From positions 1-55,207 of the forward strand of contig JAUSJA010000031.1 of the NCBI GenBank assembly GCA_030647905.1: a stretch of DNA of 55,207 nucleotides. Direction: 5' to 3'. The translations under genes were made by a program, and so were the position numbers. Below are positions 25,240-29,017 of the stretch, one piece after another (position 1 is the stretch's first letter; every line of letters starts with the position of its first letter). Below the pieces are notes generated by a model. The model did not search any database and was not told the origin of the DNA. It worked only from the letters and a program-made list of their open reading frames with translations. The stretch is from Gemmatimonadaceae bacterium. GTDB taxonomy: Bacteria; Gemmatimonadota; Gemmatimonadetes; Gemmatimonadales; Gemmatimonadaceae.

Positions 25240-25656
25240 GCGATTCGCGGCGCATGCGGCGGCGCGTCGTGGCGGATCCACGCGGCTGAAGCCGTTCGGG
25301 GATTCGACGGATGCGAGGGCGGCTGGGAGATAGACGGGGAGCCGTATACCACCGCGCCGGGGACGAACTTTCTGATGTAGTCGTTGTCCTCTGTCGCCCG
25401 ATACATGATGCCGCTGTTCCCGCCTTCGCCGATGCGCCAGTTGAGGGCGAGCTCGAAGTTGCGGTACTTGTCCGCCGTGAGAATGTCGCCGGCGTTCTCG
25501 CCTGCGCTGCATGTGGCTCCCGGAAGAGGCGTGGCGAACATACGCCGACCGCGCCGCGCAGGGAAGAAGTTGGCGGCTCGCCACGAACTCACCACGAACT
25601 CAACGGTTGAGGAAGCGCGGCCGGGCAAATAGCTTCCGTTAGCCGGTGATGCACTG
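25240..25656. other. gene-poor stretch between purH and tRNA-Ser
   Basis: No intact gene is supported in these 417 bases. The middle carries the DUF1080 remnant listed separately, and the rest is unassigned sequence leading into the tRNA. Confidence 0.5.
25374..25502 (-). pseudogene. remnant of a DUF1080 (3-keto-disaccharide hydrolase) gene
   Basis: The reverse strand encodes [18 protein letters not shown] followed by [17 protein letters not shown]. This is the core strand-loop signature of DUF1080 family secreted glycoside-degrading proteins (concanavalin-like fold). On both sides the reading frame passes into unrelated sequence without the rest of the domain. The fragment covers roughly 43 residues of a domain of about 180. 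It is therefore a decayed or truncated gene beside the tRNA-Ser integration site. Confidence 0.65.
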
Positions 25657-25739
25657 GGAGGGTTGGCAGAATGGCTATTGCACCAGTCTTGAAAACTGGC
25701 GCGGGAAACCGCTTGGGGGTTCGAGTCCCTCACCCTCCG
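25657..25739 (+). tRNA. tRNA-Ser(TGA)
   Basis: An 83-nt cloverleaf. The acceptor is GGAGGGT/ACCCTCC with discriminator G. The anticodon stem is CCAGT/ACTGG with loop CTTGAAA, anticodon TGA. The long variable arm GCGG-GAAA-CCGC is that of a class II tRNA. It reads UCN serine codons. Its 3' 52 bases are duplicated at 27340-27391, marking an integration site. Confidence 0.95.
25688..25739 (+). repeat. left attachment-like repeat (3' end of tRNA-Ser)
   Basis: These 52 bases, from the anticodon loop to the discriminator, recur at 27340-27391 with one difference (A to C in the variable arm). Integrases often insert elements into tRNA 3' ends and rebuild the tRNA, leaving such direct repeats. Confidence 0.75.
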
Positions 25740-25838
25740 TTCTTGATTCACAACGACTTACGCGATCGCGCCGCCTAGCCGCTCCAGTCGTTGGCACATT
25801 CTAGGCAACATTCTTCAGTTCTTCGCGTTACTACCCTG

Positions 25839-26378
25839 CTATCCTGCGGGGTACAGTATTTCCGCACTAAAGAGGAGATCTCGTGCGTCGACGGTCGGCA
25901 AACCCGCGACCGCGCGACGGATTGTGTATCGCCAGACGGTATTCTCTGTAGCCTTCCTGGGACCCCAGGGCGGAGTCTCAATCCGGAGTAGTACGTAACA
26001 CGAACTCCCGTCCCAAGTCACTCGGCCCAGCGTGACAAGTCTGGGGATGGGTCTGCTACGCCCTTCGATTGAGGCAAAGCTTTTTTCATCAGCGATGCCA
26101 GCGTGCGCCGCAGACGCCAAAAGTCTTATTGCCCACGCGTCTTCACTTGACGGAAGCGGAAAGCTGTAATCTTTCTTTTCTGCGAGTCTGCCCTCCCCTG
26201 AGTTATCGACCGCGAAGACGATCATTAGCGGAGTCTCGCCGAAACGCTGTCGGAGATCGGCTCCGACAGCAGCAATTACGACTGCCGAGTCGCGTACCGA
26301 CTGCGCTTCCGAAATCCGCCCTCCGGCGAATAGTAGTCCCCCCAGAATTGTCAAGGAAAAACTTCTTCGAGGTGCCAT
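25839..26378 (-). CDS. secreted hypothetical protein
   Basis: A 179-residue protein with a signal peptide (residues 1-26, MAPRRSFSLTILGGLLFAGG, cleavage after SEA). The mature part (VVIAAVGADLRQRFGETPLMIVFAVD) resembles no family I can name. AGGAGG nine bases before ATG 26378 supports the start, and it lies 18 bases after the HEFFH reading frame, so the two form an operon. It lies inside the tRNA-bounded segment and has visibly lower GC than the core genes. Export is supported; function is unknown. Confidence 0.65.
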   Translation of the reverse strand: MAPRRSFSLTILGGLLFAGGRISEAQSVRDSAVVIAAVGADLRQRFGETPLMIVFAVDNSGEGRLAEKKDYSFPLPSSEDAWAIRLLASAAHAGIADEKSFASIEGRSRPIPRLVTLGRVTWDGSSCYVLLRIETPPWGPRKATENTVWRYTIRRAVAGLPTVDARDLLFSAEILYPAG

Positions 26379-26396
26379 CTCTATGCCCCTCCTGGG

Positions 26397-27111
26397 CTAG
26401 GCGCAGGCATCTGCCCACTCTTCGGCGGTGTAAGCCCCGGGGGACATCCGCCAATCGTACTCCCCCATCTTGTGGAAAAATTCATGGCGAAGCGATCTGT
26501 TAAGCTCGTCGTTCGATCGTGAACGGCCTTCAGGAGTCGTTCCATCGGGAACACGTCTCGAAATCGCCGTATACCATGGCGTTCCGTTATTAGGGATGGT
26601 CGAAAAGGCGGCCACGGTACCCGACCTGCCTGTTATCGGATGTGTTGACCAAAACGCCTTCCCGAACATGCGGATGGCTCCGATGTTCATACCTATGGTC
26701 TGGCCGAGATCTCTGCAACGACCTAATGAATGGCTCTGAAGTCGATTCGCTTCGTTCTGAAACACGCTCAACTCCGCCGGACCAGGATTCACGATCGGTT
26801 GTCCATCCGGAGTGTACGTTGTGTCGCCGGCATAATACACCGGGCGATAAGAGTCGTTCGTGGCCTGGTTTTCACTGTCCCAATAGTCCGCATAGTAAAT
26901 GGGGTTTCCGTTGATCTCATCACAATTCGGATTGTCTTGGCAACTGATGAGAGGCTGACGGCTTGACCGGCGTGTCATCGTCATGCGGGGCGGGAGAGGC
27001 ACTGTCCGATACGCGGCACCCAACAATTAGAAGGCACATCGCAAGAATTCTCAGGGAGGGTCCAGAACGTATCCGTCGTATGGCGAGTGCACTAGGTTCG
27101 GGGCCAGGCAT
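26397..27111 (-). pseudogene. frameshifted lipoprotein with an HEFFH metal-site motif
   Basis: Two overlapping frames look like one broken gene. The first starts at ATG 27111 behind GAGG, encodes a basic leader and the lipobox LLIVGC, and stops at 26920. The second is open from 27026 to 26397 and encodes YYADYW, a conserved-looking C-terminal region and HEFFHKMGEYDW, an HExxH zincin-type motif about 25 residues from the end. A single-base indel between 26920 and 27026 would join them. If the second frame is used alone it lacks an export signal. No family was recognised. Confidence 0.5.
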
Positions 27112-27117
27112 TCGCAT

Positions 27118-27508
27118 CCTCGTATAGGGTTTGACAAGCGCAACTTGGTCTAATTCGGCCCTACCGCAATAGCAAGATCCAAGCTGCGTGCGGAGGCGCC
27201 GATGGTAACAATCCTGTCAACGTTTCTCCGCAAGCCATCGCAATGGATCGCAACCCGGAGCGGCCTCAATCGGAGCTCCGGCTTCCTGTTGAGAGGCGAA
27301 CGCAGACAAATTGGAGCGGTCGCAAACGGGAGGCGAGAACTTGAAAACTGGCGCGGGCAACCGCTTGGGGGTTCGAGTCCCTCACCCTCCGCTTAGACCT
27401 ACCATTATCGCAGCCAGAGTCACTTCGCGCGATTTGCCATTGGGTCTATGCGGATACGGGGACCCGCGACGCGGGTAACCTGGCATCTGAAGGCGACGAC
27501 GATATCGA
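27118..27508. other. non-coding end of the tRNA-bounded segment
   Basis: No gene is supported. The region holds the right attachment-like repeat (27340-27391) and, left of it, the probable promoter region of the leftward lipoprotein/secreted-protein pair. Confidence 0.5.
27340..27391 (+). repeat. right attachment-like repeat (partial tRNA-Ser copy)
   Basis: This 52-base copy of the 3' part of tRNA-Ser(TGA) matches 25688-25739 at 51 positions. It lacks the acceptor 5' strand, D arm and anticodon 5' stem, so it cannot be a functional tRNA. It defines the right edge of a segment of about 1.6 kb. Confidence 0.8.
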
Positions 27509-28759
27509 TCACGGCCCGAAGGCACCGATCGGAATTACCGCCACGCCATCATCGCGCACGTACCCATATCCCGACGCAACAACAACCGCGAGCGTGCTCG
27601 GCTTCCCGGACTTCCTGGCGTCGATTCGCGCAGAAAATTTGAGCAGGTTCGCCGCTGCTTCGTCGATCTGGCCATGCCCGAGCTTTACCTCGAACGCCGC
27701 CCAACGACCGTCCGCGGCCTGTACAATTGCATCGACCTCCAGTCCTGTATTGTCGCGATAATGGTAGACCGCCGCATCTGCAGCCTGTGCGTACACACGA
27801 AGGTCGCGAATGACCATCGACTCGAACAGGAAACCGAACAGATTCAGGTCCTTCAGGAGTCGCGCTGGGGTCGCCCGCAATGCGGCAACGGCAAGCGACG
27901 GATCCACGAAATGACGCTTGGGTGCGTTTCGCAGAATTGACCTGGATCGCAGGTGCGGCGCCCACGCGGGCTGATCTTCGACGATCATGAGACGCTCGAG
28001 GGCCGCCAGGTACTCGCGCACTGTATCGTCTTTGAGAGCGCCGTCCGAACCGCCTGCGTCTGCTGCCAGCGTCGTCGCCGTCACGCACGTCGCCACGTTA
28101 CGTGCGAGCGAGCTAATGAGACGCCCGACTTTGTCGGGATCGCGCCTGGTCTGGTCGACCCGGCCAACATCAACGCGCCGAATTTCGTCGAGGTAGTCTC
28201 TGACCGCCTGTAACGAGTGGCTGACTGCGCGATGACCGTGGCCCGGCCAACCTCCGACTGCGACGCGCTCGGCTATTTCCGTAATTGACAACCCCGGATC
28301 AGGGCTCCTCACGTTGGCGGCGCCTAATAGTTTTCGCAGGGAAACTGATCCTGTAGAGTGGCCAGTCTCGAAAAGACTCATTGGGCGCATTCGGAGGCGG
28401 GTGAGCCGAGCAGCACCAGTGTGCCGCGTGACATCGTCCGCCGGGACAGCGGATCCCGTAAGGATGAACTGCCCCGGCTTCCCGCGGTCGTCCACCGCAC
28501 GACGGATATGGTTCCAGATCCTGGGCTCGATTTGCCACTCGTCTATCAGTCGCGGAACGGCTCCTGCCAGCACCAGTTTCGGATCGACGGCGATAGCCAG
28601 ACGAGCGTTTTCGTCGATGTCGAGCAATACCTCGCTGGCAGCCACCTGCCTGGCCGTGGCGGTCTTGCCGCACGCCTTGGGTCCTTCGATGACTACAGCA
28701 CCTGTTGATGCAAGGCGTCTTGCCAGCTCACTATCGACCACTCGAGCCTGGTAGGTCAT
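27509..28759 (-). CDS. AAA_14 / DUF4143 ATP-binding protein
   Basis: A 416-residue ATPase. The N-terminal AAA_14 domain has Walker A GPKACGKT (residues 26-33), Walker B RLIDEWQ and FILTGSA as sensor. The C-terminal DUF4143 domain has GLEVDAIV followed by AFEVKLG, the D/E...ExK spacing of a PD-(D/E)XK-like fold. Family members occur as mobile, often solitary genes, with no settled function. ATG 28759 has GGAGGG six bases upstream; the longer frame is not supported. Five 23-bp repeats lie just upstream and probably control it. Confidence 0.85.
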   Translation of the reverse strand: MTYQARVVDSELARRLASTGAVVIEGPKACGKTATARQVAASEVLLDIDENARLAIAVDPKLVLAGAVPRLIDEWQIEPRIWNHIRRAVDDRGKPGQFILTGSAVPADDVTRHTGAARLTRLRMRPMSLFETGHSTGSVSLRKLLGAANVRSPDPGLSITEIAERVAVGGWPGHGHRAVSHSLQAVRDYLDEIRRVDVGRVDQTRRDPDKVGRLISSLARNVATCVTATTLAADAGGSDGALKDDTVREYLAALERLMIVEDQPAWAPHLRSRSILRNAPKRHFVDPSLAVAALRATPARLLKDLNLFGFLFESMVIRDLRVYAQAADAAVYHYRDNTGLEVDAIVQAADGRWAAFEVKLGHGQIDEAAANLLKFSARIDARKSGKPSTLAVVVASGYGYVRDDGVAVIPIGAFGP

Positions 28760-28814
28760 TGGCACCCTCCTAGCGGACCAGAATGACGTCGGCCGCGCTG
28801 GCCGAGCGAGTATT

Positions 28815-28929
28815 AACAGGGATAATAGCACGATATCAGCAGGGATAATATAACGATCTAAACGGGGATGATATACTCCTTTTAACAGGGATAATACAAG
28901 AATGAGCCCGGGGAGAATATAACACCAGA
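28815..28929 (+). repeat. five direct repeats with exact 23-bp period
   Basis: Units start at 28815, 28838, 28861, 28884 and 28907. The GGGA core lies at 28819, 28842, 28865, 28888 and 28911, always 23 bases apart. Consensus of the conserved part is AACAGGGATAATATAACGAT, with the last three bases of each unit variable. There are no spacers of CRISPR type. The array is 55 bases upstream of the DUF4143 start and 88 bases upstream of the divergent M14 gene, so it is best read as an operator or iteron-like protein-binding array. Confidence 0.85.
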
Positions 28930-29017
28930 TTAATCGTGGCTACAGGGGATTGACCGCTGAACCCCCGTGCGCTATCACGTCGCTGTCGTAGTTGCCACCA
29001 AAAATGTCGGGACTCTC

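Follow-up and report, generated by a model that had tools for sequence, protein, structure and literature searches.

A 1.65-kb integrase-less insert at tRNA-Ser(UGA) of a Gemmatimonadaceae bacterium, a candidate cassette mobilised in trans

Introduction

tRNA islands are usually recognised by their integrase. The Islander collection comprises 3,919 such islands, of which 2,083 have an anticodon-centred site and 159 have 5' fragments. It lists regeneration of the 5' half as a rare known type and requires an integrase gene in the interval (PMC4383910). Because surveys impose this requirement, small tRNA inserts may have been overlooked. Among elements described in other contexts, phage satellites measure 6-18 kb, and CALINs are integron cassette arrays without an integrase (reviewed in PMC11389934). 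A search of open-licence papers gave no description of integrase-less tRNA islands, which is weak evidence given that the wording for such elements varies.

Here we analyse a window of 55,207 bp, contig C31 of the Gemmatimonadaceae genome G000 (a 3.1-Mb draft in 37 contigs), in which a partial tRNA copy bounds a short interval. Nearly all genomes compared with it are draft or metagenome assemblies.

Results

A displaced tRNA half bounds a two-gene insert

The locus runs from purH through tRNA-Ser(UGA) and a variable zone to tRNA-Ser(GCU). Its features are as follows:

25657-25739, plus strand: tRNA-Ser(UGA), the integration target (ARAGORN; alignment with relatives)
25688-25739: attL core, the 3' half of tRNA-Ser(UGA)
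25751-25762, plus strand: left-end motif CAACGACTTACG (reversed-pattern control, 0 matches in 288 genomes)
25839-26378, minus strand: gene A, secreted protein of 179 aa without a family match
26397-27026, minus strand: gene B, lipoprotein body with an HEFFH (HExxH) motif, from its translation
27229-27325, plus strand: YGCAA direct repeats, putative integrase arm sites, starting at 27229, 27239, 27249 and 27321
27337-27391, plus strand: attR, consisting of an element-side GAA and the 52-bp displaced tRNA 3' copy (27340-27391)
27509-28831, minus strand: AAA_14/DUF4143 ATPase gene to the right of the copy, of uncertain membership

The original prediction had described a repeat from the anticodon loop to the discriminator base with one difference, and this is what we observed: the 52 bp at 27340-27391 correspond to tRNA-Ser(UGA) positions 32-83, with a single mismatch, in the variable arm, where the tRNA's GAAA is GCAA in the copy. 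The copy has the same orientation as the gene, and the tRNA and the displaced fragment mark the element ends. A search of the 3.1-Mb genome returned the copy with E = 1.4e-19, and a 25-mer common to tRNA and copy has two matches in the window versus 0.00 expected. The intact tRNAs of two relatives (G003 and G013) are identical to the window's copy at 52/52 positions, whereas the window's own tRNA differs from them at one base. Such a pattern is expected if the copy is the original 3' part in displaced form, a reading that a one-base difference cannot prove. No third tRNA copy or remnant was found downstream in the window beyond the tRNA genes. In the gap between purH and the tRNA, positions 25268-25493 hold remnants that match relatives and the 3-keto-disaccharide hydrolase family (PF06439), apparently a decayed gene.

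The interval between tRNA and copy spans 1,600 bp (about 1.65 kb for the whole att-bounded element) and is AT-richer than its flanks, with a G+C of 0.54-0.60 compared with ~0.65 upstream. Open reading frames at 26397-27026 and 25839-26378, both on the minus strand, confirmed the predicted content of one broken lipoprotein and one secreted protein in about 1.6 kb. Genes A and B form a whole co-directional operon, and gene fragments are absent. The lipobox N-terminus of B (about 26922-27117) sits in a different frame from the body, indicating that B is frameshifted and hence that the cargo is decaying. Neither gene has a Pfam, PHROG or PADLOC match, and the Pfam and PHROG searches of A and B thus found no satellite hallmark or packaging gene in the 1.65-kb unit. 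Gene A has no relatives among the contigs of the compared genomes; for B, four weak homologues turned up elsewhere in the order, and one of these is an intact lipoprotein. A second copy of the insert was not found elsewhere in the genome.

The interval is also without an integrase, as predicted: PF00589 was absent from the contig, and a locally built integrase HMM detected neither an integrase nor a remnant over 25-37 kb at E<1.

Attachment ends and arm motifs are common to integrase-bearing elements

Full-size elements occupy the same tRNA in two other genomes. In G163, tRNA-Ser(UGA) is followed by an intact tyrosine integrase of 391 aa, by a tape-measure-like protein of 1,490 aa and, at a distance of 12.5 kb, by a tRNA copy; beyond this element lies a relic of 4.05 kb that retains 125 aa of an integrase and has a tRNA copy of its own. 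In G068, the element is defined by a 403-aa integrase that shares ~50% identity with the G163 enzyme and by a 56-bp copy at a distance of 11.5 kb. At an E-value threshold of 1e-15, G000 contains no intact integrase of this clade; two short fragments of related integrases occur elsewhere in it (contigs C22 and C26).

A search with the tRNA alone retrieved long 3' copies in G000, G001 and G163 (two copies). All 4 of the 4 start at the identical base with GAAC on the element side, although this signature was not used in the search. The right-end signature reads GAAC followed by TTGAAAAC, its GAA standing where the anticodon stem of the host tRNA would be. Used as a pattern, it additionally matched G073 and G068, and a reversed control gave 0 matches in 288 genomes.

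Upstream of the copies, YGCAA repeats are enriched and phased. The 200 bp before the six copies contain 23 of them (mean 5.9, maximum 12 in shuffles). In the window they start at -108, -98, -88 and -16 relative to GAAC, and across the six elements their positions coincide near -16/-17, -26/-27, -88/-89, -98 to -100 and -108 to -110, giving 21 coincidences where 3.1 were expected (maximum 13 in 20,000 randomisations). YGCAA was derived from the same sequences on which it was tested, and a shuffle test over all 5-mer patterns was borderline (23 observed, best shuffle 22); therefore, we give most weight to the positional phasing. Lambda-type integrases have arm sites at helical spacing, and the phased YGCAA repeats resemble these, suggesting that they are putative arm sites.

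The left-end motif CAACGACTTACG lies 12-23 bp 3' of the window's tRNA. It recurs at the left ends of two integrase-bearing elements, one in G068 and one beside tRNA-Cys in G073, while the G163 left end has only the shorter form TTGGACTTACGG. The window element thus agrees with the G163 and G068 phage-like elements in target, copy edge, GAAC half-site and phased YGCAA arms, and with G068 in its left end as well; it differs from both in that they carry an intact integrase (and, in G163, the tape-measure-like protein) and have no cargo gene in common with it. Separately, GACTTACG was considered as a strictly integrase-linked motif and rejected, because few of the tRNAs with the motif have a recognised integrase within 1.5 kb. 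The association of the motif with tRNA copies was moderate (5/22 versus 4/81 within 6 kb, p = 0.02, in a biased sample), and it may partly be a feature of the tRNA trailer.

These attachment arms, common with integrase-bearing relatives, strongly support site-specific integration into the tRNA. A short repeat in a 37-contig draft assembly might instead arise by chance, through misassembly or by partial duplication of the tRNA without any integration. However, the element-side signature and phased arms recur in six elements, the edges are identical in independent assemblies, and integrases lie beside the same att sites; we regard such an origin as highly improbable.

On contig C8 of G000, tRNA-Ser(GGA) (L077 1924-2011) is followed by two tandem ~15-kb islands (L072, about 1800 and 16330). 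Its 3' copies lie at 15.8 and 30.4 kb and a tyrosine integrase gene begins each interval, so this genome hosts full-size anticodon-loop islands at a sister tRNA.

Small integrase-less units recur at tRNA-Ser(UGA)

Two further mini-intervals are bounded by tRNA-Ser(UGA) and a copy with the window's right-end signature: one of 1.76 kb in G001 with a histidine-kinase-like gene, and one of 2.28 kb in G073 with PEP-CTERM-like and acyltransferase-like genes (all named from translations). No integrase was found in either, and the homology of the window insert to the G001 unit is confined to the tRNA part. Three separate inserts of 1.6-2.3 kb are therefore alike in compact shape and unrelated in cargo.

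This recurrence bears on whether the window element is a deletion relic, that is, a full prophage-like element that inserted and later lost its integrase and phage genes internally, leaving its ends and one operon. Full elements with the same ends exist in G163 and G068, the neighbouring G163 unit is such a relic and shows that full elements of the window's att type decay to short ones, B is frameshifted, and two related integrase fragments persist elsewhere in the genome. Yet the insert has no trace of an integrase or phage gene, both arms are intact, the genes are not truncated at a junction, and three separate inserts are alike in compact shape. We judge this origin a serious possibility, though less likely than not.

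In Actinomycetota, tandem rows of 0.8-2.9-kb integrase-less units bounded by the right-end signature occur at tRNA-Ser(UGA), and their cargo, toxin-antitoxin or defence-like, differs from unit to unit. L224 has the tRNA and three copies spaced by about 2.9, 1.0 and 1.4 kb, the units carrying, in turn, a Schlafen-type helicase with a nucleotidyltransferase, a HigB-like toxin and a HEPN gene. The ends of its units agree at 76-89% across about 70-110 bp, and no similarity is seen between the interiors. Elsewhere, L219 carries an AbiEi/AbiEii pair and L182 an SdpI-like gene, and L220 has a nucleotidyltransferase-like unit and, past the next copy, a DUF4143 ATPase gene. The local HMM detected no integrase in the row loci; integrases occur elsewhere in three row-bearing genomes (L224, L220 and L182). 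The cross-phylum scan required the GAAC signature and so cannot itself count as evidence for it, and the arm sequences of the rows differ from those of the window, making them an analogy rather than the same element.

The interval is absent from the same locus in relatives

In relatives' loci, neither A nor B was found beside tRNA-Ser(UGA), and the interval was absent from every same-genus locus examined, so the segment is not conserved core. Likewise, no relative has a partial tRNA copy that lacks an insert. Neither of the two arrangements that the original prediction named as refuting it was therefore seen. The DNA directly 3' of tRNA-Ser(UGA) is unrelated between most same-genus genomes, which identifies the site as a hotspot. 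Of the two arrangements that the original prediction proposed to look for in relatives, larger tyrosine-integrase islands were found at this tRNA (G163 and G068), and the differing DNA after the tRNA left no empty-site junction alignable to the base.

In G007, an M14 peptidase gene follows the tRNA almost directly, where the window has ~3.2 kb (the mini-island and the DUF4143 gene). As the DUF4143 gene is absent from this locus along with the mini-island, it is possibly a second insert. The mini-island might also form the proximal section of a larger composite island. That island would include the DUF4143 gene, perhaps with a further portion of the 11 kb before tRNA-Ser(GCU), and would have lost its distal tRNA copy. 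Besides G007, the spacing of the two tRNA-Ser genes in distant family members (100-300 bp) and a DUF4143 gene right after a copy in an Actinomycetota row point in this direction. Against it, the window has no third copy downstream, the left-end motif is absent after the copy, and the G007 tRNA carries a replaced 3' half, so that this locus has its own history. We therefore consider a composite island unlikely, and the related suggestion in the original prediction, that the right edge is an earlier attachment site of a larger island, draws slight support from G007 and meets the same lack of a third copy. Upstream of the DUF4143 gene, positions 28815-28940 contain several direct repeats of AACAGGGATAATA, perhaps operator sites.

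Other tRNA-derived copies

Several arrangements were observed in other genomes. The tRNA-Ser(UGA) genes of the family are mosaics (L037 9768-9850, L051 19073-19157 and L032 13291-13374), with a constant 5' half and differing 3' halves or the reverse, as repeated two-sided integration would leave. In other family members, 5'-half copies lie upstream of the gene (L083 3870, 16548 and 18767; L084 9751 and 13047; L082 15873-15908; L087 5223-5268), some with integrases nearby, and correspond to islands that regenerate the 5' half instead. A 2.2-kb tRNA-bounded element in G012 (L174 325-2600) has a tyrosine integrase as its main ORF, a near-minimal autonomous unit. In G222, tRNA-SeC has a 60-bp copy of its 3' part ~0.5 kb downstream, at 95% identity (L158 112-749). 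In L192 (3268-3975, reverse-complement coordinates), a tRNA-Ser 3' copy is followed by five more repeats of 18 bp from the tRNA end, spaced 128-135 bp apart and conserved in their flanks; L208 and L210 also have short additional copies of this sort.

Discussion

Based on these data, the window most plausibly, on a modest balance of probability, contains a 1.65-kb non-autonomous, att-bounded cassette that was inserted by a tyrosine integrase, probably acting in trans, that entered in small form and that is now stranded. We infer a circular form and trans action in the following proposed sequence. A tyrosine integrase of the G163/G068 type would recombine a circular molecule of attP plus cargo into the tRNA-Ser(UGA) anticodon loop, whereby the element would give the tRNA a new 3' half and displace the old one to 27340-27391. 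Entry in small form, with the integrase supplied in trans, is most likely in view of the compact two-gene unit, the intact arms and the lack of any integrase-gene trace, and the element would then have become stranded.

Arrival as a cassette is favoured by the compact co-directional operon, the two-sided arms, the absence of gene fragments and the recurrent shape, and also by the Actinomycetota rows, in which integrase-less units combine conserved ends with unrelated interiors. On the other side, a shrinkage model stays plausible in view of the frameshift in B and the relic in G163, and the lack of an intact helper integrase of this clade in G000 also weighs against the cassette reading. A trans-helped cassette is thus somewhat more likely than a deletion relic; correspondingly, among the options raised in the original prediction, the evidence leans towards a satellite that uses another integrase, ahead of one whose own integrase has been lost.

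More broadly, we tentatively propose, at a little under an even chance, that the tRNA-Ser(UGA) anticodon loop is a docking point for 0.8-2.9-kb integrase-less cassettes in more than one phylum. These would have conserved att ends and exchangeable cargo of host type or of toxin-antitoxin/defence type, would be mobilised in trans by phage-type tyrosine integrases, and could build rows. They would be a tRNA-based counterpart of integron cassettes that integrase-requiring surveys have left unreported, with the window as a single-cassette example. If this is true, some small genes, toxin-antitoxin and defence modules among them, are acquired by a cassette route that Islander-type searches exclude by design. 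The end motifs (GAACTTGAAAAC...GGTTCGANTCC copies near tRNA-Ser(UGA)) make cassettes searchable at single-base precision, and the two candidate integrases of G163 and G068 make trans-mobilisation testable.

Like Islander tRNA islands, the window element has a regenerated tRNA at one end and a displaced 3' fragment at the other, both in the same orientation, with the crossover in the anticodon loop; it differs in that an integrase is required there, whereas the window interval is 1.6 kb without one (PMC4383910). Very small, site-specifically integrated elements with few genes are also found among the cryptic integrated elements of Thaumarchaeota, but the smallest described, at 2.6 kb, still encodes an integrase (PMC6563490). 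With phage satellites and other hitchers it would have in common a mobility that depends on another element (PMC11389934), although at 1.65 kb and with no satellite hallmark genes found it is unlike a satellite. Finally, CALINs likewise consist of small cargo units that have recombination sites, lack an integrase and can be mobilised in trans, and the rows of the Actinomycetota cases extend this likeness. The repeated site, however, is not attC but the 3' half of a tRNA, on which a phage-type integrase acts, and the window holds one unit.
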